The translations under genes and the position numbers were made by a program. A stretch of DNA of 64,000 nucleotides from Massilia sp. YIM B02443 (GTDB lineage: Bacteria; Pseudomonadota; Gammaproteobacteria; Burkholderiales; Burkholderiaceae_D). The stretch is from assembly GCF_030411955.1 (NCBI RefSeq), contig NZ_JASNRA010000001.1:186001-250000 (forward strand), in the 5' to 3' direction. The notes below the pieces were generated by a model, which was given only the letters and a program-made list of their open reading frames with translations, had not been told where the DNA came from and searched no databases. This document shows positions 1 to 9,279 of the stretch, one piece after another. Numbering within the stretch: position 1 is the first letter of the stretch; the number at the start of each line of letters is the position of its first letter.

Positions 1-42
1 GTGGTCACGCTGGCGGCGTCGCTGTTCGTCGGCCGTCGCTAA
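1..42 (+). CDS. C-terminal tail of an upstream gene (partial)
   Basis: The first 14 codons read in one frame to a TAA stop and encode a short hydrophobic stretch ending in two arginines (VVTLAASLFVGRR). The stop overlaps the AAGGAGGG ribosome-binding site of the next gene, as expected for an upstream member of the same operon. The tail could be the end of a membrane segment, but almost all of the gene lies outside the window, so no function can be given. Confidence 0.5.
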   Translation: MVTLAASLFVGRR

Positions 43-58: not shown

Positions 59-3000
59 ATGGCAGAATTTCCCAACCCTTCGTCGCTGAACGCGCGCGGC
101 GGCGCGCCGGCCGATCGCGGCCCGGCAGAACTCAAGGTCGACCTGCGCCCGACGCTGTTCATCGGCGCCGGCGGCACCGGCATGGAAGTCATGCTGCGCA
201 TCCGCCGCCGCATCCTGTCGGCGGTGTGGAACCGGCGCCATCCCACGCGCGTGGAATCGATCGCCGACTTCCCGGTGGCGCGCTTCCTGCACTTCGACCT
301 CGACAACAACGCCATCATCGACGAAGGCAAGTCGCAGCGCACCGATCCCTGGTACGAACTGGTGCGCCTCACCGACGAGGAACGCCTGGTCGAGCCGCTC
401 GACCTGCCGCAATACCACGAGTCCGACGACAGTCTGGCGCGCTTTCCGCTGATCGAAAGCTGGATGCCGCTGCGTCCCAAGAAACTGCGCTCGCTCGGCA
501 TCGACCCGTCGAAAGGCGCGGGCCAGATCCGCGCGCTGGCGCGCCTGTACCTGTTCGACAAATATCCGAAGCTGCGCGGGCGCATCAAGGGCGCGCTGAA
601 TTACCTGAGCAGCAACGCCGGCATCGAACGCAAGGAGAACTACCAGCGCCTCGGCCTGCAGGTCGACACCTCCAAATTCCGCATCGTCGTCATCGCGTCG
701 GCCGCCGGCGGCACCGGTGCCGGCAGCGCGCTCGACCTGGGCTGGCTGGCCAAGGCGATCGCGCGGCAGGAAGTGTCCGACAGCCAGGTCGACCTGGTGC
801 TGTTGATGCCGTCCGGCTTCGCCAAGGCCAACAAGGAGCGCACCGAAGCCAATGCCTACGCCACGCTGATGGAACTGGAAACGGCGATGCGCGACATGAA
901 CGCCAACGTATCCTGGATGGACCCGGACAGCATCGCCGGCAAGGGCGCGCCGTTCGACGACGTGTATTTCGTCGACACCGCCAACCTGGCCAACAAGGCC
1001 ACGCTGGATGTGAAGGACGCCTACCAGATGGTGGCCGACAGCCTGTTCGAAGACTTCGCATCGGCCGATTTCGCCAACCGCAAGCGCTCGGTGGCGGTCA
1101 ACCAGCAGCAGCACAAGCTGGGACCCTACAACCCGCGTGTGCCCGAGGCGCGCTTCGGCGACATGCGGCTGTCGTACTCGAAAGTCTATTCCGCCTTCGG
1201 CCAGGCGGTGCTCGACACCCAGCAAAGCCTGCACCAGGACATCCGCGCCTACGAACTGGCGGCGCTGATGGTCAAGGAATTCTTCGGCCTGGCCGGCAGC
1301 GACGGCAACGGGGCCGGCCTCGCACGCCGCGCCGGCGACGCCGAACGCGACGCCTTCATGCGCGACCAGCTGGAGATGGGCGAGCGCCCCTTCGACGACT
1401 TCCCCGACCTGCGCAAGGGCGCGGCCGACGTCACGCCGTTCAACGAATACGCACTCACCGGCGCGCTGCTGCAGGACCGCGACGGCCGCTCGCTGCTGGA
1501 ACGGGTCGAGAGCCGGGTGCAGCTCGAGATGGACCGCATCATGGCCTCGTACGACATCAAGTTGTGGCGCGAGCGCGTGGCCGAGCTGCTGCCGCAACTC
1601 GAGCGCGACGCCATCCGCGAAGCCGGCGCCACTGCCGAGACCAGCGAAGACCGCATCCGCCGCCACACCGGCGAGCTGCTGGGCCGCCTGAAGGGCCGCG
1701 TGCGCGAGCGCCTGTACGCGCTGCTCGACGACCGCCGCCAGGGCGGTCTCGAATTCGTGCTGTCGCTGCTGGAGCAGGTCAAGGGACGGTTGCAACAGCG
1801 CGACCTGGCCAATGCGGAACGCAACGGCCGCCGCTACCGCGAGGTGCGCGACGTGCTGCGCACGCGCCAGGTCGAAGAATCGCTCGCCAACCTGGACCAG
1901 GCCGCCGGCCGCCTGTTCGGCAAGGAGCCGCAGGCGCGCGAAGTGATGGGCCACCTCAAGCGCGACCTGGCCGACTACCTGCGCTTCCACCTGCTGGCGG
2001 TGGCATCGCAGCAGGCGATCGAGGTGATGCGCTCGATGTCGGCCTGGCTCGGCGACCCCGAGAAGACCGACGAACAGGGCCAGGCGCAGTGGAGCGGCAT
2101 CGCCGGCGAATTCCAGGATGGCCGGCGCCAGGTCCAGGCGATGCTGGCGGCGGTCGATGCCCGCATCCGCCAGCTGCGCGCCGACGCGCGCGAGGAGCAC
2201 GCCACCACCATCAAGCTCGGGGTCGACGTGGCGCCGGCGCCGGTGCGCCTGACGGGTGACGTCAGCCAGTGGAGCGAAGAAGTGCTGCTCGAATTCGGCG
2301 GCTCCGCGCGCCTGTTCCCGCAACTGGGCGACGAGCGCCTGCGCACCGACCTGCTGCTCAAGCTGTTCCGCCGCGCGCAGCTGCAGCTGTCGAGCCAGGG
2401 CGCCGACCTGGCCGAGCCGCCCGACCCGCTGCTGGAGCAGCTGTCGGCCCTGTCGCCGCAGGAACGCCAGCGCATCTTCGCCGAATGGATCAGGAGCGCC
2501 ATGCCGTGGGTAAACGCGCGCTTCTCGGCCGAGTTCACGCCGAACGCCGACCAGTTCAAGTGCTTCATCGGCGTCGGCGACCCGGTTGCGTGGCGCCGCA
2601 TGGAGCTTGAAATCCGCGCCGCGGTGCCGACCGGGTACTTCCACGGCGACCTGGTCTCGGTGGTCAACACCGGCGTCGCCGGGCGCGCGGTGTGCTACAT
2701 CGAACTGTCGGGCTATCCGATGACGGTGCTGCGCGGCCTGCCGACCTGGCGCGCCTCGTACCAGATCGAGAACCCGAAGATCCCGACCCACCTGCACTTC
2801 GACGCCACGCGCTTTCGCCATCCGATCTCGCCGTCGATGGATGAACTGGGGCGCCTGGCCGACGACTACGAGTGGTTCTTGCAGGCGATCGCGCTCGGCG
2901 TCATCCGCCGCAAGCCCGAGCTGGGCGACCGCGAGGCCGCGTTCCAGCCGCGCGGCCAGTACCTGTTCGAGGTCGAGCCGGGATCGGGCGAGTGGCTCCA

Positions 3001-3727
3001 GATCGGCAACGAATACGCGATCCGCGCCAACGGCCTGCCGTCGTACTATCGCGAGGGGGTGATCGCGGCGGTGCAGCAGAAACTGGGGTCGATGGGGCCG
3101 CACCGCCTGGCCTTGTTGGCGGCGCTGATGCGCCACTACCAGCTGCGCGTCTACGAGCCGCGCCTGGAAGTCGACGAGACCGGCGCCCAGCTGCCGTCGC
3201 CGTCGCTGCCCAACATCACCGCGCGCCGCCTGTATGACAGCTGGATCCGGCGCGCGGCCAGCGCCGATCCGTCGCTGTCCTCCAGCCAGATCGAGACCGC
3301 GCTGGCCGGCATCGAGGGCTGGACCGAGGCGGTGCCGGGGTCGCACCAGGACGCCTACGGCTGGGAAGTCGAGCGCGCGGTGGACAAGCGCGTGATCCTG
3401 CCCGAGTACCTGGCCAGCGAGGAGCGGGCAGGGGCGGCCTTGACGGGACGCGCGGCCGCAACGGCGCCGGCATCGCCGTCGGCCGCGCCGCGCTTCAAGC
3501 TGTTCGCCGGCGGCGCCCAGCGCGGGCCGTTCACGGTGAGCGAGATCGCCGCCATGGCCGCGCGCGGCGAGATCGACGGCGCCACGCGCGCCTGGGACAT
3601 GCGCTGGAATCCGAAGATCGGCAAATGGAGCACGGTCGGCGCGCTGCCCGAGCTGGCAGCGGCGCTGAACGCGGGCAGGGACGACGGCATTCCCGACCCC
3701 GACGACGGCGTCCCCGATCCTGAATGA
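59..3727 (+). CDS. Large FtsZ/tubulin-superfamily protein with C-terminal GYF-type domain
   Basis: The 1222-residue protein carries two hallmarks of a tubulin/FtsZ nucleotide-binding fold: a glycine loop GAGGTG near residues 36-41 and the tubulin signature AAGGTGAGSAL near 215-225. It belongs to the large 'tubulin-like' class (Pfam Tubulin_2 type), which has been proposed, not shown, to act in membrane remodelling. FtsZ itself is only about 380-400 residues. The middle (about 480-720) is charged and helix-rich. The last 80 residues match a GYF_2 module (FKLFAGGAQRGPF ... WDMRWNPKIGKW), normally a proline-rich-peptide binder, followed by an acidic DPDD tail. Its stop codon overlaps the next start (ATGA), and that next protein has a long proline-rich linker that the GYF domain could bind. 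The cellular role is unknown. Confidence 0.8.
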   Translation: MAEFPNPSSLNARGGAPADRGPAELKVDLRPTLFIGAGGTGMEVMLRIRRRILSAVWNRRHPTRVESIADFPVARFLHFDLDNNAIIDEGKSQRTDPWYELVRLTDEERLVEPLDLPQYHESDDSLARFPLIESWMPLRPKKLRSLGIDPSKGAGQIRALARLYLFDKYPKLRGRIKGALNYLSSNAGIERKENYQRLGLQVDTSKFRIVVIASAAGGTGAGSALDLGWLAKAIARQEVSDSQVDLVLLMPSGFAKANKERTEANAYATLMELETAMRDMNANVSWMDPDSIAGKGAPFDDVYFVDTANLANKATLDVKDAYQMVADSLFEDFASADFANRKRSVAVNQQQHKLGPYNPRVPEARFGDMRLSYSKVYSAFGQAVLDTQQSLHQDIRAYELAALMVKEFFGLAGSDGNGAGLARRAGDAERDAFMRDQLEMGERPFDDFPDLRKGAADVTPFNEYALTGALLQDRDGRSLLERVESRVQLEMDRIMASYDIKLWRERVAELLPQLERDAIREAGATAETSEDRIRRHTGELLGRLKGRVRERLYALLDDRRQGGLEFVLSLLEQVKGRLQQRDLANAERNGRRYREVRDVLRTRQVEESLANLDQAAGRLFGKEPQAREVMGHLKRDLADYLRFHLLAVASQQAIEVMRSMSAWLGDPEKTDEQGQAQWSGIAGEFQDGRRQVQAMLAAVDARIRQLRADAREEHATTIKLGVDVAPAPVRLTGDVSQWSEEVLLEFGGSARLFPQLGDERLRTDLLLKLFRRAQLQLSSQGADLAEPPDPLLEQLSALSPQERQRIFAEWIRSAMPWVNARFSAEFTPNADQFKCFIGVGDPVAWRRMELEIRAAVPTGYFHGDLVSVVNTGVAGRAVCYIELSGYPMTVLRGLPTWRASYQIENPKIPTHLHFDATRFRHPISPSMDELGRLADDYEWFLQAIALGVIRRKPELGDREAAFQPRGQYLFEVEPGSGEWLQIGNEYAIRANGLPSYYREGVIAAVQQKLGSMGPHRLALLAALMRHYQLRVYEPRLEVDETGAQLPSPSLPNITARRLYDSWIRRAASADPSLSSSQIETALAGIEGWTEAVPGSHQDAYGWEVERAVDKRVILPEYLASEERAGAALTGRAAATAPASPSAAPRFKLFAGGAQRGPFTVSEIAAMAARGEIDGATRAWDMRWNPKIGKWSTVGALPELAAALNAGRDDGIPDPDDGVPDPE

Positions 3728-4575
3728 AGGCGGGCATGGAGCACAACGACACCATCTACCGCTGCATCAACGCCGACTGCGGCCGCGCGTTTCCACGCCG
3801 GGTGAACTTCTGCCCGTGGTGCGGGACGGCGCAGCAGGCGGGGGCGACGCCTGCGCTGGCGGCGGCCGGGCCGGTACTCGCCAAGGCGGAGCCGCCGCCG
3901 GCCGCCGCCGCGCGCGCCGCCGCCGCACCGGTAACGCCGCCACCTGCGCCAGCGCCAACTCCTGCGGCACCTCCTGCGCCACCGCCTCAGGCCAGGCCCG
4001 CTGCGGCCGCGCCACCGCGTGCAGCCGCATCGCCGCTGTCGTCATTGCCTCCGTTGCCGCCGATCCCACCGGTGCCGCCGGTGCGTGGCGCGGCCTCCGG
4101 ATCGGCGCCACGCGCACCGGCGCCGCCGGGCCGCAAGCCGATCCGCCTGCGCTGGTGGCTGATCGCCCTCGGCGCCCTGTGGCTGGCCTGGATGCTGACC
4201 AAGCCGACCGAGGCCCGCATCGAACGGCGCATGAAAGCGGCCATCGCGCTGGCCCAGGAATGCAAGCCGCGCGAAGCGCAGGACGCGCTGATCGCGCTGC
4301 GCAAGACGCGCGCCACACCGGCGCAGCTGCGCCAGGTGCAGGACGCGCTCAACGAAGCGGCCGCCGCCTGCACCCGCGCCGAACGCCGCCGCAGCGCCTG
4401 GAAGGAAACCAGCGCCGCCGCCGAGCGCCTGCTGAACGCCAATAGCATCGAACGCGCGCGCAGCCGCCTGTCGGCCTTCACCAAGCGCTGGGGCGAAGAC
4501 GAGCAGACGCGCGAGCTGCGGCGCCGCATCGACGCCGAACGCCATCCGCTGGCGGACCCGTCGCGCAGCGAATGA
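3724..4575 (+). CDS. Zinc-ribbon, proline-rich, single-pass membrane protein
   Basis: The 283-residue protein starts with a four-cysteine zinc ribbon (C14, C19, C30, C33; CINADC ... CPWC). A very proline/alanine-rich linker follows (about 40-138), then one transmembrane segment (about 144-158, RWWLIALGALWLAWML). The last 120 residues are basic, helical and possibly coiled-coil. The ATG overlaps the stop of the tubulin-like gene by four bases; a second in-frame ATG four codons later is also possible. The tight coupling, and a proline-rich stretch beside a partner with a GYF-type domain, suggest that this is its membrane anchor or partner. That interaction is inference. No enzyme motif is visible. 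Confidence 0.7.
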   Translation: MKAGMEHNDTIYRCINADCGRAFPRRVNFCPWCGTAQQAGATPALAAAGPVLAKAEPPPAAAARAAAAPVTPPPAPAPTPAAPPAPPPQARPAAAAPPRAAASPLSSLPPLPPIPPVPPVRGAASGSAPRAPAPPGRKPIRLRWWLIALGALWLAWMLTKPTEARIERRMKAAIALAQECKPREAQDALIALRKTRATPAQLRQVQDALNEAAAACTRAERRRSAWKETSAAAERLLNANSIERARSRLSAFTKRWGEDEQTRELRRRIDAERHPLADPSRSE

Positions 4576-4647
4576 AGCCTCGCCCGGCGCCGGATCATGG
4601 CGCGGGCCGGTGTATCATCGACATGTTTGAACAGACAGGAGCAGGAC

Positions 4648-4938
4648 ATGAAAGCAACGATGGGAGCGCTGCTGGTCTTGGCGGCGCTGGCCGGATGCGG
4701 CCGCGACGACGCCGGCGCCGGCCCGGCCGAGCGCGTGGGCAAGGCGATCGACAACGCCGGCGCCAAGGTCACCAACTCGGTCCAGGACGAACTGGCCAAG
4801 GTCGACCGCGCCACCGAAGCCGCCCGCGACAAGGTCAAGGACGCCACCCGCGACGCCAGCCGCGGCCTGGACCGCGCCACCGACGAAGTGGGCAAGCACG
4901 TGGAACGCGTCGGCGAGAAGATGCAGCAGAAGGACTGA
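4648..4938 (+). CDS. Small lipoprotein with amphipathic repeats
   Basis: The 96-residue product has a short signal peptide ending in the lipobox LAGC (C17), so it is probably lipidated. The mature part is strongly charged and helical, with a repeating A-K/R-D-E pattern (DKVKDATRDASRGLDRATDEVGK), like LEA- or apolipoprotein-like periplasmic helices. The start at 4648 is chosen over an upstream in-frame start because AGGAGCAGGA precedes it and the lipoprotein signal begins there. It follows the zinc-ribbon gene by 72 bases, so co-transcription is possible. No specific function is recognised. Confidence 0.7.
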   Translation: MKATMGALLVLAALAGCGRDDAGAGPAERVGKAIDNAGAKVTNSVQDELAKVDRATEAARDKVKDATRDASRGLDRATDEVGKHVERVGEKMQQKD

Positions 4939-4963
4939 CGTCCGTGTGAGCGTCGCCGGCGTG

Positions 4964-5359
4964 TCAGTCGGTGACCTTGCCCCGCAATGCCTTGATCTGC
5001 CCACTGCGCGTTTTGGCATCCAGGCGCCGCACCTGCGACCCCCGTGTCGGCCGCGTCGGCCGCCGCACCGTCGGCACCACCGCCGCCTGATCCACCAGCG
5101 CCTGCAGCCGGCGCAGCGCGTCTTCCTTGTTCTGCTCCAGGCTGCGCGACTGCTGCGCCTTGATCACCAGCACACCTTCGCCCGTGATGCGCGCGTCGCG
5201 CAGCGCAAGCAGCCGCTCCTTCACGTGCCCCGGCAGCGACGACGCCGCGATATCGAATCGCGCATGCACCGCGCACGACACCTTGTTCACGTTCTGCCCA
5301 CCCGGCCCCTGGGCCCGGATGGCGCTGAACTCGACTTCCGCTGGATTGATGACTGCCAT
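4964..5359 (-). CDS. arfB: Alternative ribosome-rescue factor ArfB (peptidyl-tRNA hydrolase)
   Basis: The 131-residue protein has the catalytic GGQ motif (residues 20-22, in AQGPGGQNVNKV) of class I release-factor-like hydrolases and a basic C-terminal tail rich in Arg and Lys. This is the compact architecture of ArfB/YaeJ, which enters stalled ribosomes without a stop codon, places its tail in the empty mRNA channel and hydrolyses the peptidyl-tRNA. The length matches E. coli ArfB (about 140). It converges with the lipoprotein gene, 25 bases apart. No strong Shine-Dalgarno sequence precedes the ATG. Confidence 0.9.
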   Translation of the reverse strand: MAVINPAEVEFSAIRAQGPGGQNVNKVSCAVHARFDIAASSLPGHVKERLLALRDARITGEGVLVIKAQQSRSLEQNKEDALRRLQALVDQAAVVPTVRRPTRPTRGSQVRRLDAKTRSGQIKALRGKVTD

Positions 5360-5616
5360 GACGATTCTGGATAACGATGACCCGGCACGTCGACCGCGCG
5401 CCGCTGCCGCATTGTAAGCGCTGGCGCCAGATCAGGAGGCGCACACGATCGCCCAGGTACATGGCCACCGCCGCGCCGACAAACGCCCGGGATGCCGTCG
5501 CGATGCCCATCGCTTTCTTAGGCGTTCCTAGTTTGGCGGCATTGCTTCCAGGACGCGCGCCACGGCCAGCACACCATTCAGAACCTTGTCCGCTACTGCG
5601 GCTGGGAGCCCCATGA

Positions 5617-5880
5617 TTACCACTCCGCCGAGTTGCTGGCCGCCGACGTGTCCCTCTCACCGAGCTTGAGCTCCAGCTCTAATGCCGAGCACCAGCTGAG
5701 CAGCTGCTTGACGCTGAGTTCCTCGGGATGATTCTCGAGGTGCGAAAGACGATTCTGGCTGACCCCGACATAGCCTGCCAGGGTAGCTTGCGTCATCTTG
5801 TGCCTTTTGCGCGTGGTTTTGAGGAGCTGCCCGAGGTGGGCCGCCGTGGATAGCGTGTGGGCTGTGGGCGCGAAGGACAT
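5617..5880 (-). CDS. Xre/HipB-type DNA-binding regulator (orphan)
   Basis: The 87-residue protein has a Xre-family helix-turn-helix between about residues 14 and 72 (LGQLLKTTRKRHKMTQATLA ... VSQNRLSHLENHPEELSV). Size and layout resemble HipB-type antitoxins, but no HipA kinase or other toxin gene follows. The 257 bases between its stop and arfB contain no convincing ORF. A long AT-rich palindrome lies directly upstream (5892-5950) and is a likely autoregulatory operator. No Shine-Dalgarno sequence is seen, so the transcript may be leaderless. It could be a remnant or solitary antitoxin, or a stand-alone regulator. Confidence 0.7.
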   Translation of the reverse strand: MSFAPTAHTLSTAAHLGQLLKTTRKRHKMTQATLAGYVGVSQNRLSHLENHPEELSVKQLLSWCSALELELKLGERDTSAASNSAEW

Positions 5881-5891
5881 GATGAATATGC

Positions 5892-5950
5892 GATATTCGG
5901 ATATCTAACTTTTATCTGAAATACAGATAAAGTTAATATATCCGAATATC
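5892..5950. promoter_or_regulatory. Large AT-rich palindromic operator upstream of the Xre regulator
   Basis: Two 27-base arms (5892-5918 and 5924-5950) form a near-perfect inverted repeat around a 5-base centre. Each arm starts with GATATTCGGATAT and ends in TTATCTG, so it also contains nested smaller palindromes (TATCTG/CAGATA; GATATTCGGATATC). The interval is much more AT-rich than its surroundings and covers the promoter region of the 5617-5880 gene. It is best read as a multi-site operator for cooperative binding of the Xre protein, by analogy with HipB autoregulation. Binding itself is inference. Confidence 0.6.
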
Positions 5951-6098
5951 AGATAAATCGAACTTGGAAGGTTCGGCCGGGCGCGCACTAACTCGATTTC
6001 ATCTCACATGGTGTTCGACAGATGAAACACCCACGAGATGTGCTGCTATTTTACGAAGTGTGGATTCGGCGACTTGGCGGGCGAGTAAAACACAGTCC

Positions 6099-8168
6099 TC
6101 AGGCGCTCGCCACCCGCAACGCTTCGCGCTCACCCATCACCACCGACAGCTCGACCTGCCCGGCGCGCCACGCCTGCTCCAGGTTCTGCTCGATCTCGTC
6201 GAGGCTGACGCCATCCGCATCGGCAAAGCCGCGCACGCCGTAGGCGCGGTTGCGGCCGTGCGACTTGGCCAGGTACAGCGCCATGTCGACCAGGTTGACC
6301 GCGCGTTCCCATTCCAGCACCTGACGGCCCACCGCGAGCGGGAACGGCGAGTAGCCGATCGACACCTGCACGCTCAGGCTCGCGCCGCCGTGCACGATGC
6401 GGGTATTGGCAATCCCGGTCAGGATGCGTTCGGCCAGTTCGTCCAGGCTGTTGCGCGACGCGGCAGGCAGGAAGGCGAGGAACTCTTCGCCGCCCCAGCG
6501 CACGATCATGTCGGTCTCGCGCAGGATTTCCTGCAGGCTGGCCGAAATCGTCGTCAGGACCGTGTCACCGGCGGCGTGGCCGTAAGTGTCGTTGATGTGC
6601 TTGAAATGGTCGACGTCGAGGAGGAAGAGGGCGCCGACCTGCTCATCAAGGCTGGAGGAAGGCGCCGGCAGGTCGCGCATGTACTCGAGGAAGTGGCGGC
6701 GGTTGTACAGGCCGGTGAGCGGATCACGCACGCTCTGCTGCTTCAGTTCGCGGTTCTTCTCGTGCAGCCGGGCGTTGGCCTGGCGCACCTTGCGGTACAG
6801 CGAGCCGACGATCACCGCCACCAGCGCCAGCACCACGGCCAGCAGCCACCACACGCGCTGCTGCAGGCGGCGGTTATCGAGCTCGGTCGACTTGATCAGG
6901 TTCTCGCTGCGCAGCAGTTCGATCTGGCGCTGCTTCTTGTCGGTCTCGTATTTTTCCTGCAGGTCGAGCATGGCCTGCTGGCGCCGTTTCTCGAACAGCT
7001 CGTTCGAGATCCTGCGTTCGCGGTGATAGGCGTGCAGCGCGCTGGCCAGTTCGCCGGTGCGTTCCAGCGCGGCGCCGTATTCGACCAGCGCATTCTGCAG
7101 CTCGGGCTTGTCGCCCAGCTCCTCGTAGCCGGCCAGGCCGATCTCGATATGGCGCTTGCCTTCTTCGGTGCGGCCAAGCCCGAGGTAGGCCTGGCCCAGG
7201 TTCAGGTTGGCGGTCGTGGTCAGCCGGCGGTTGTTGAGTGGACGCGCCGCTTCCAGTGCCTGCTCGGCGTACGACGCAGCCCGGCGGTACTCCTGCATCT
7301 TGAGGTAGAAATCGGACAGGTTCACCAGCGAATACACGATGCGCTTGTGGGCGCCGATCTTGCGCTCCAGCGCCAGCCCTTCCTGCAGGGCGCGCAGCGC
7401 GCGCGCGTGCTGGCCGGTGTCGATCGCCAGGCCGTATTCGGCATTCTTGATGGTCGCCATGCGTCCCGGGGAATCGGCTTTCGCGGCGGCGGCCAGCGCT
7501 TCGTCGAGCACGTCGAAGCCTTTCTCCGGCTCGCGCATGCTGGTGTACAGGCGCGCCAGCGAATTGAGGGCCATGACGATGTGCACCGGCCCGCCGTGCT
7601 CGCGCGCCAGCGCGGCCGCCGCCTGCAGCCGTTCCAGCGCCTTCGGCAGGTTGCCTTCCTCGGCATACGACTCGCCCGACGAGATGGTGGCGCGCACGCG
7701 CAGGTCGAGGTCGTCCGTGGTGGCGGCCAGCTTTTCGGCATCCCACACCAGGCGGTGCGCTTCGCCCGGACGGTGCTGGGCCGACGCCGAGTAGGCCAGC
7801 AGCAGCATGCCCTTGGCCAGGGCGCCGGTATGATCGTGCTCGCGTCCGAGCGCGATCAGCTCGTTGGCGAGCACAAAAGTTTGCGGATGATGGCCCAGGC
7901 CATGGCGCGCGGTGGCCAGCTGGTTGAGGAAGTCGATGCGCTGCGCCAGCGGCGCGGCGCGGCCTTCGGCTTCGAGCGCCTGCAGCATCGGCAGCGCGCG
8001 TTCCGGCACGAAGCGGTTGACCTCGCGGATCTCGTCCAGCCGCTGGGCCAGGCGCGTGCGCAGGGGATCGGTTTCTTCGGCGCCGGCAAACGCCGATACC
8101 ACGCACAGGGCCATGGCCAGGGCGTGGAAACGGGAGCGCATGAGGGCGCGGTGCAGGGCGGAGAACAT
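6099..8168 (-). CDS. Exported TPR-sensor diguanylate cyclase (GGEEF)
   Basis: The product of about 689 residues has an N-terminal signal peptide (ALAMALCVVSAFAGA) and a periplasmic region of TPR-like helical repeats. A single transmembrane helix (VWWLLAVVLALVAVIVGSLY) follows, then a cytoplasmic GGDEF domain. The active-site motif is GGEEF, preceded by DPLTGLYNRR and DVDHFKHINDTYGH. An RETD inhibitory site sits five residues before it, so the enzyme should make c-di-GMP and be product-inhibited. The start is uncertain: ATG at 8168 is chosen, ATG at 8141 also gives a good signal peptide, and a TTG at 8234 is open in frame. The signal sensed by the TPR region is unknown. Confidence 0.85.
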   Translation of the reverse strand: MFSALHRALMRSRFHALAMALCVVSAFAGAEETDPLRTRLAQRLDEIREVNRFVPERALPMLQALEAEGRAAPLAQRIDFLNQLATARHGLGHHPQTFVLANELIALGREHDHTGALAKGMLLLAYSASAQHRPGEAHRLVWDAEKLAATTDDLDLRVRATISSGESYAEEGNLPKALERLQAAAALAREHGGPVHIVMALNSLARLYTSMREPEKGFDVLDEALAAAAKADSPGRMATIKNAEYGLAIDTGQHARALRALQEGLALERKIGAHKRIVYSLVNLSDFYLKMQEYRRAASYAEQALEAARPLNNRRLTTTANLNLGQAYLGLGRTEEGKRHIEIGLAGYEELGDKPELQNALVEYGAALERTGELASALHAYHRERRISNELFEKRRQQAMLDLQEKYETDKKQRQIELLRSENLIKSTELDNRRLQQRVWWLLAVVLALVAVIVGSLYRKVRQANARLHEKNRELKQQSVRDPLTGLYNRRHFLEYMRDLPAPSSSLDEQVGALFLLDVDHFKHINDTYGHAAGDTVLTTISASLQEILRETDMIVRWGGEEFLAFLPAASRNSLDELAERILTGIANTRIVHGGASLSVQVSIGYSPFPLAVGRQVLEWERAVNLVDMALYLAKSHGRNRAYGVRGFADADGVSLDEIEQNLEQAWRAGQVELSVVMGEREALRVASA

Positions 8169-8453
8169 GCGATGGATCTCGCTGCGCCGGTGGTTCCGAC
8201 GAAAATGATTTGACACATTATAGGGCTGTTGCAAACCGGAAATTAACTTTCCTGATGAATGTCACCAAAATGACACAGTGCCCGCCGTTACAGGCAGACT
8301 GCATGGTTTCACATGGTTGTTCTCGATGGCTGCGAGTTGGTTTTTGTTAAATCCTCTTGGTAGGTCATCGGCCGCTGATGCGAACTGCAAGCGGTGCGCC
8401 TGCCGGCGCAGGCCGATCCTATACTGACGGCTCGCCATGACACGAGGACGGCT

Positions 8454-9218
8454 ATGTGGACATCATCCTGGGCCCGCTGGGGAGCGACGCTGGGCTTCGC
8501 CCTGGGCGGCTTCTTCGACGGCATCCTGCTGCACCAGATCCTGCAATGGCACCACCTTCTGAGCCTGGTGCCGGGCATCGACGACCTGCGCCTGCAGGTG
8601 CTGTGGGACGGGTATTTTCACCTGTTGATGTACGTGATCGCGCTGGCCGGCCTGGCCGGCCTGTGGCGCGCGCAGCGGCGCGGGGCAGTGGCGTGGGGCT
8701 GGCCGCTGGCCGGGGCGCTGTGCGTCGGCTTTGGGCTGTGGCACGTGGTCGATGCGCTGATGTCGCACTGGTTGCTGGGGATTCACCGGATCCGGGTGGA
8801 TAGTCCGAATCCGCTGGCGTGGGACCTGGCGTGGCTGGTGCTGTTCGGGCTGGCGCCGCTGCTGGCGGGGTGGCGCTGGATGAAGCGGCGCGGCGGCGAT
8901 GCCGGTGGCGCGGGCGGCATGCGCACCTCGAATGCGGCGCTGGTGTTGCTGGGGGCGTTCACCGGCGCGGCCGGGGCGTGGGCGCTGGTGCCGGCGCCGG
9001 GGCAGGACCTGACCACCGTCGTATTCCGGCCCGGAGCCAATCCGCGCGACGTGTTCGCGGCGCTCGATGCGGTCGATGGGCGGCTGGTGTGGAGCGATCG
9101 GAAGATGGGGGTGGTGGTGATGGCGCTGCCGAAGGAGCGAAGATGGGATCTGTACCGGCATGGGGCGATGCTGGTCAGTGGTGGTGGAGCAGGGTGTGTG
9201 AACTGGAGCCGCGTGTAA
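8454..9218 (+). CDS. DUF2243 membrane protein with extra C-terminal region
   Basis: The N-terminal 150 residues match the DUF2243 family of small polytopic membrane proteins (GGFFDGILLHQILQWHH ... GLWHVVDALMSHW), with about four hydrophobic segments and conserved histidines within them. The protein is 254 residues, longer than the usual family length as I recall it. The extra part adds another hydrophobic helix (NAALVLLGAFTGAAGAWALV) and a soluble tail of about 70 residues. Start 8454 has GAGG about nine bases upstream. The role of DUF2243 is not established; the histidine-rich membrane core could bind metal or haem, which is speculation. Confidence 0.75.
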   Translation: MWTSSWARWGATLGFALGGFFDGILLHQILQWHHLLSLVPGIDDLRLQVLWDGYFHLLMYVIALAGLAGLWRAQRRGAVAWGWPLAGALCVGFGLWHVVDALMSHWLLGIHRIRVDSPNPLAWDLAWLVLFGLAPLLAGWRWMKRRGGDAGGAGGMRTSNAALVLLGAFTGAAGAWALVPAPGQDLTTVVFRPGANPRDVFAALDAVDGRLVWSDRKMGVVVMALPKERRWDLYRHGAMLVSGGGAGCVNWSRV

Positions 9219-9246
9219 GGTTCCACGCCAGTCCACTATTCCTGGG

Positions 9247-9279
9247 ACCGTCATTGCTGCCCGCGGCAGGAATGACGGT
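9247..9279. terminator. Hairpin between convergent genes
   Basis: Arms 9247-9261 and 9265-9279 (ACCGTCATTGCTGCC and its complement, one mismatch) flank a three-base loop. The hairpin sits between two convergent genes and has no long T run. It may be a bidirectional terminator or a REP-like element; its outer bases resemble those of the repeat at 51891-51995 (CGTCAT ... ATGACG). Confidence 0.5.

Follow-up and report, generated by a model that had tools for sequence, protein, structure and literature searches.

The FtsZl1 family of tubulin-like proteins was defined in 2010 by Makarova and Koonin, and the passages of that paper on gene neighborhoods place vWA, kinase, GTPase, OmpA and unclassified membrane genes beside it (PMC2875224). 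Neighborhoods that combine tubulin, vWA and GTPase genes are treated as conflict systems in the relevant sections of Kaur et al. 2020 (PMC7159879). In Synechocystis, insertion mutants of sll0445, which encodes a Tubulin_2 protein, and of sll0446 and sll0447 are described as impaired in phototaxis, and the proteins of this cluster associate with Slr2015 and Slr2018, termed pilus assembly proteins there, and also with photosystem complexes (PMC9880817). Parts of two other reports mention a putative CRP site for the sll0445-sll0447 transcription unit (PMC2633013) and deregulation of Sll0445 and Sll0446 in a comFB mutant (PMC12313861). Here we describe a set of five genes, A to E, from the soil bacterium Massilia sp. 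YIM B02443, in which D encodes a large FtsZl1-type protein. D and E lie in the window, that is, the whole stretch of 64,000 nucleotides that was analyzed, corresponding to bases 186001-250000 of contig C1 (NZ_JASNRA010000001.1) in a source genome (G000) of 5.7 Mb. The reading that we favor is that A to E form one operon for an assembly at the inner membrane, in which a tubulin-like GTPase would dock by means of E and be linked to B, a vWA-like sensor in the periplasm. This reading is tentative; it could well hold, and could slightly more easily fail.

Gene order and distribution of the module

Gene D (window 59..3727, plus strand) encodes a protein of 1222 amino acids with an FtsZ-like 1/Tubulin_2 domain (PF13809). 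Gene E (window 3724..4575, plus strand) encodes 283 amino acids, made up of a zinc ribbon, a flexible, proline-rich linker, one membrane helix and a variable tail judged by eye to be helical. The two open reading frames (ORFs) overlap by 4 bases. The initial annotation of this DNA had described just this pair, and its observation is confirmed, being incomplete only in scope: the operon begins about 3.4 kb upstream of the window, whose edge cuts it. Three further genes precede D on the same strand. A (G000:C1:182580-184073) encodes 497 amino acids and B (G000:C1:184073-185560) encodes 495. C (G000:C1:185584-186042) encodes 152 amino acids from the start used here (152-157 depending on the start), its 3' end forming window 1..42 and the rest lying at 185584-186000. 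As for the upstream vWA or kinase genes that had been proposed for comparison, a protein with a vWA-like pattern (B) and a membrane protein (C) are encoded there, and a kinase gene was not found by Pfam.

The arrangement was followed by searching for the genes with tblastn in 80 named loci, a selection out of 247 confirmed matches. A was recovered in 77 of them, B in 78, C in 79, D in all 80 and E in 74. The order A-B-C-D is found in 77/77 loci where A was found, and the three loci lacking A (L087, L110 and L130) start inside the operon. The named near relatives include Massilia, Telluria, Pseudoduganella, Rugamonas and Janthinobacterium. The same order appears in two more divergent genomes, one of another class (G486) and one of the same taxonomic order (G751), and it is kept at L054, from another class of the phylum, with a weak match to A (E=4e-5). 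E was missed in six loci, namely L120, where the contig ends inside D, and the divergent L137 and L140-L143, where D identity is 43-47%. In five of these six, the slot of E is occupied by another zinc-ribbon protein. The conservation of the D-E pair, on which the initial annotation had staked its proposal, is upheld. Within samples that include the source genome, D is present in 32/145 genomes of the family (7/44 genera) and 3/250 genomes of the order, and PF13809 matches 8/398 genomes of the phylum, seven of them above cut-off; the source genome has a single match to D. The module is thus patchy in distribution but ordered where present.

The tubulin-like protein, its partner and the upstream genes

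The Tubulin_2 domain covers residues 33-403 of D (window 155..1267, plus strand), where PF13809 scores 164.7 bits (E=4.8e-48), its cut-off being 27. It holds a glycine motif, GAGGTGM (residues 36-42, window 164..184, plus strand), which we take to be of the T1 type, and a T4-type motif, AGGTGAG (residues 216-222, window 704..724, plus strand), which corresponds to the glycine-rich loop that binds GTP in the tubulin superfamily. In an alignment of 10 D sequences, the window's own included, G36, G38, G39, T40, G41 and M42 of the former and A216-G220 and G222 of the latter are invariant. The canonical Tubulin model PF00091 scores 12.8 bits with D, below its cut-off of 33. The sequence features that were tested place D in FtsZl1/Tubulin_2 within the tubulin superfamily. 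Since the source genome carries a separate canonical-type FtsZ gene on another contig (PF00091, 156 bits), D is not its division tubulin.

The AlphaFold2 model of D (1200 residues, 47 alignment rows) is weak, with a mean predicted local distance difference test score (pLDDT) of 68.4 and a predicted template modeling score of 0.41. Searched with Foldseek, it gave 588 matches at E <= 10, of which the best 50 are all tubulin/microtubule, FtsZ or TubZ chains; the leading one has E=2.3e-3 and probability 1.00, and none reaches E <= 0.001. Alignment of the tubulin part with 20 FtsZ proteins by hhalign at default settings paired the T4-loop stretch alone (probability 4.7%, E=0.0086), and a permissive setting made the alignment longer and unconvincing. 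FtsZl1 proteins are characterized by an extended coiled coil with a mostly helical C-terminal domain behind it; in D, residues 457-690 form long helices, as read from the model, and the C-terminal part mixes helix and strand. D has no clear membrane helix. Sequence searches of the PDB with D, B and A gave no useful match.

Near its C-terminus, D has a GYF_2 domain (residues 1151-1199, window 3509..3655, plus strand) that passes the cut-off of PF14237 marginally (26.8 bits against 25.8, E=4.6e-6); the D protein of the distant L054 scores 36.8 bits (E=3.3e-9). A hidden Markov model (HMM) built from the tails of eight D proteins matches 80/80 D proteins, the eight seeds by construction; these 80 are the window's protein and those of 79 loci, L120 being excluded because it is cut inside D. 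The protein ends in a conserved acidic peptide, IPDPDDGVPDPE (residues 1211-1222, window 3689..3724, plus strand), of the PDP(E) type. Such an end is found in 75/80 D proteins, and the remaining five, which are divergent ones, have a proline-rich end. In G018 and G139, the match to D comes in two pieces that break near where the GYF tail begins, which could mean that the linker preceding the tail is different or has an insertion.

E begins with a zinc ribbon, CX4CX10CPWC (residues 14-33, window 3763..3822, plus strand), continues with a linker of 106 residues, 32% of them proline (window 3823..4140, plus strand), which ends in APPGRKP beside the membrane helix, and then has one hydrophobic segment, placed by hydropathy (residues 140-158, window 4141..4197, plus strand). 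The initial annotation had named these three parts of E, as well as the two glycine motifs, the GYF-type tail and, by way of structure prediction, the tubulin fold of D, and all of them are seen here, the tail marginally by its Pfam score and the fold in that the 50 Foldseek matches listed are without exception of that superfamily. The zinc ribbon was found in 66/68 E proteins, or 67 once L131 is read in the right frame, and L127 shows none; seven of the 74 E matches had been dropped as cut off or short (L078, L085, L094, L105, L106, L109 and L110). The proline fraction of the linker falls from 0.48 (L125) to 0.06 (L101), with a median of 0.26 in the 52 linkers bounded by the motif beside the helix, and most linkers are proline-rich. 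Those of L101, L118 and L136 are charged and alanine-rich; values for L102, L107 and L134 were left out, as their transmembrane positions look misassigned. To judge from the sequences compared, the constant part of E is its zinc ribbon, not its proline content.

Proteins in the slot of E that tblastn with E did not match keep the zinc ribbon as well. A zinc ribbon, a linker and a membrane helix are found in those of L140-L143, L051, L049, L050, L054 and L164. In L140-L143, a further tail follows the membrane helix, and at L054 (14946-16106) a PEGA domain does (E=7.9e-16), which suggests that the outer end of the slot-E protein is exchangeable. In a Thiodictyon metagenome-assembled genome, the zinc ribbon in this slot is fused to a full TerD domain (L137:9707-10396, E=6e-61). 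The divergent clade has, after the slot, a lipoprotein-like gene with a glycine-zipper-like stretch (L140:14005-14721; also in L141, L142, L143, L051 and L049), and its product fell below the Pfam cut-off in the two tested.

No Pfam family was matched above cut-off by A, B, C or E of the source genome, and none at all by its A. Close to its N-terminus, A carries cysteines in a pattern that ends in CPRCG and may be a zinc ribbon. A Pfam scan of eight A proteins found a zinc-ribbon model in two (best E=0.0019) and a propeller repeat in one (E=0.045), all of these being weak matches; the A proteins of L137, L140 and L143 do not retain the cysteines. B starts with a sequence resembling a signal peptide and shows a Rossmann-type (vWA-like) pattern in its N-terminal part; this is followed by an Ig-like part, one membrane helix and, at the C-terminus, a short beta domain. 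Its AlphaFold2 model (43 rows, the first sequence being from L064) has a mean pLDDT of 86.8 and consists of alternating strands and helices, Ig-like strands and a helix at 410-434. C has three hydrophobic segments (19-mers at residues 62, 103 and 131; ORF L002:19469-19942, start 19484), and by this pattern it is a small multi-pass membrane protein.

Possible workings and rival explanations

If A to E act as one inner-membrane assembly, D would bind GTP and oligomerize, docking at the membrane through the zinc ribbon of E and through C, possibly with help from GYF_2 or the C-terminal peptide. The periplasmic vWA-like domain of B would sense or hold an envelope ligand and relay this across the membrane, and the signal from B would switch on or organize the assembly of D at an envelope site. 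The output would most likely be the organization or repair of envelope structures, such as surface appendages or a stress-damaged envelope, and not cell division. A bolder form, which we think has a small chance of being right, is that B is a periplasmic pseudo-vWA receptor controlling a cytosolic tubulin-like polymer across the inner membrane via the zinc-ribbon adaptor, with a fixed cytosolic docking module and an interchangeable end (helical repeats, PEGA or TerD). If this were true, bacteria would direct one filament core to envelope tasks that differ from one bacterium to another. Massilia, Pseudoduganella and related genera have these five genes in a compact and ordered form, with one core and a membrane adaptor that is exchangeable, and this allows a direct test of what such tubulins assemble on.

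Several points weigh against the envelope-assembly reading. GTP binding, polymerization and the interactions are all predicted. The metal motif of vWA domains is given as DxSxS in the pertinent part of PMC2875224; at the expected site, B reads QNSGWM, invariant in 43/43 sequences, and the B protein of the distant L054 reads QDSGWM. Pfam VWA was found in 1/8 B members (E=0.093), and the vWA assignment of B comes from its fold pattern. In a Foldseek search with the B model, no vWA structure was among the best 50 of 1123 matches, the leading ones being beta-sandwich and Ig-like. In D, the stretch expected to hold the catalytic T7 loop of FtsZ (model residues 302-365) has pLDDT <50, and hhalign did not align it. 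As for the proposed output, co-occurrence with type IV pili is uninformative, because PilT-type genes are present in 140/145 genomes of the family. The Synechocystis mutants impaired in phototaxis are also described as altered in photosystem II electron transport (PMC9880817), and thus their phenotype is not pilus-specific.

Other ways of joining or using these proteins need to be weighed. The initial annotation held that a filament-forming GTPase is anchored to the membrane because D, by its GYF-type tail, binds the proline-rich linker in E. Linkers would then be expected to be proline-rich wherever the GYF-like tail is kept. GYF_2 does pass its cut-off both in D and in the distant L054 protein, the linker of the source genome is rich in proline, and prolines beside the membrane helix are kept in many partners. 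However, the linkers of L101 (0.06), L118 (0.08), L136 (0.08) and L086 (0.11) are only 6-11% proline and that of L164 is rich in charged residues, while the tail is kept in 80/80 D proteins. The divergent clade, moreover, has proline-rich stretches within D itself, beside the GYF domain. A PPG-hydrophobic motif, the classical GYF ligand, occurs in 9/71 linkers scored and not in that of the source genome. As far as sequences can tell, the linker comparison speaks against obligate binding of a proline peptide by the GYF domain, and the tether as it was stated is unsupported and in our view quite improbable. In a weaker form, GYF may recognize a short proline motif adjoining the membrane helix. 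FtsZ meets its tethers through a conserved C-terminal peptide, and for that reason the PDP(E) peptide and the zinc ribbon rank no lower than the GYF domain as candidates for a tether. D might also be a tubulin-fold scaffold or nucleotide-sensing adaptor that does not polymerize, the operon encoding a signaling complex. Judged by eye, VNQxQHK is the conserved stretch that follows the presumed H7, and T7-type catalytic aspartates are not recognizable; against this, D has the two glycine loops, each with an invariant core, and other members of the superfamily polymerize. We consider such a scaffold unlikely. In the part of their paper on this family, Makarova and Koonin did not confidently identify T6-H7 of FtsZl1 either (PMC2875224), which is in keeping with it.

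The operon could instead be a stress or conflict (defense) system with D as a polymerizing effector, a relative of the GTPase-tubulin-vWA systems that Kaur et al. 2020 describe or of the Ter stress systems; this we regard as doubtful. The corresponding section of PMC7159879 lists genes for tubulin, membrane vWA proteins and zinc ribbons in the GAP1-N2 systems, and GYF genes as well in those of planctomycetes, and a caspase-like gene lies near another FtsZl1 gene (L053). On the other hand, Pfam found no GTPase, kinase or HSP70 domain in A-E, and PADLOC returned no match for them. For the Ter side, the Thiodictyon fusion is joined by a statistical link among the 145 family genomes: 28 have both D and TerD, 4 D alone, 10 TerD alone and 103 neither (odds ratio 72). 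Counted by genus, the numbers are 6, 1, 3 and 34 (p=7.8e-5; controls p=0.0013, 0.004 and 0.004). Arbitrary accessory families taken as controls also give positive odds ratios with D (IcmF_C 16, GH18 3.0, non-ribosomal peptide synthetase condensation 2.2), and therefore genome size and ancestry contribute to the signal. The link lies mostly between clades and is absent in the three genera in which D or TerD varies (g12, D 7/7 and TerD 4/7; g23, D 1/7 and TerD 0; g40, D 3/7 and TerD 7/7). Nor does Pfam find a TerD gene among A-F of the source operon region, TerD occurring in the slot only as the L137 fusion. The TerD association is thus a lead, not a result.

Beside these comparisons, it was seen that about 20-21 kb separate TerD genes from the D gene in 5/7 genomes of genus g6 (G048, G109, G123, G092 and G072). 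IcmF_C, of type VI secretion, was found in 28/32 genomes with D and 34/113 others, probably through ancestry and genome size. The L053 locus (1836-9263, minus strand), an FtsZl1 locus from the same order, has OmpA, DUF4384 and caspase-like (Peptidase_C14) neighbors and two small proteins with cysteine-bearing starts, as judged by eye. Downstream of E in the window, a small lipoprotein-like gene, F (4597-4938), adjoins it. F was tried as a member of the operon and rejected, because tblastn finds relatives in only 52/80 loci and their distance from E varies, up to about 7 kb. A short ORF on the minus strand (4964-5359) has by eye a GGQ-type peptide-release motif and is presumably a ribosome-rescue factor, and a long one (6099-8234, minus strand) resembles, also by eye, a repeat-containing GGDEF protein. 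Scanning the window for Rfam families and tRNAs gave no match.

Comparison with described systems

FtsZ is tethered to the membrane by ZipA, FtsA and SepF, and the module resembles this arrangement in that a tubulin-fold protein of the cytosol carries a conserved C-terminal peptide and has a partner anchored in the membrane. It differs in that D is not an FtsZ by its PF00091 score and in that the source genome has its own FtsZ-type gene. With the Synechocystis cluster, the likeness is a Tubulin_2 protein encoded in a gene cluster, there with interactions with Slr2015 and Slr2018 and a motility phenotype; the neighbors are described there with FtsA and DivIC domains, and photosystem complexes are among the interaction partners too (PMC9880817). 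The GAP1-N2 systems share a tubulin gene, a membrane-bound vWA gene (here the vWA-like B), zinc ribbons and membrane location in the part of the report that sets them out (PMC7159879), whereas A-E have no GTPase by Pfam, in a search whose models did not include DO-GTPase or GAP1.

The closest likeness is to FtsZl1 as portrayed in the passages on that family, in the Tubulin_2 domain, the long helical middle, the large size, the patchy distribution and the vWA-like and membrane genes of the operon (PMC2875224). Because the family and its vWA and membrane neighborhoods were described there in 2010, the tubulin core is not new. The differences lie around it. The majority of FtsZl1 operons include a vWA-domain gene, and a kinase, GTPase or OmpA gene is frequent in them, though not universal; Pfam found none of the latter three in A-F, and the metal motif of B is degenerate, while it is intact in the majority of the vWA proteins treated there (PMC2875224). 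Beyond that description, the module has E, a membrane protein with a zinc ribbon, and A, which may be another zinc-ribbon protein, besides the GYF_2 tail of D. With no kinase, GTPase, OmpA or HSP70 by Pfam and with the zinc-ribbon adaptor and GYF_2 tail added, it fits neither the FtsZl1 nor the conflict-system description fully. No account of the A-E module was found among the matches listed in the literature searched, which left most subscription papers outside its scope. The initial annotation had called the pair its best candidate for an undescribed system; this stands insofar as the A-E set seems uncharacterized, but not for the FtsZl1 family, published in 2010 (PMC2875224), whose Synechocystis member has a reported mutant phenotype (PMC9880817). 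The A-E module therefore looks like an uncharacterized variant of the FtsZl1 theme.

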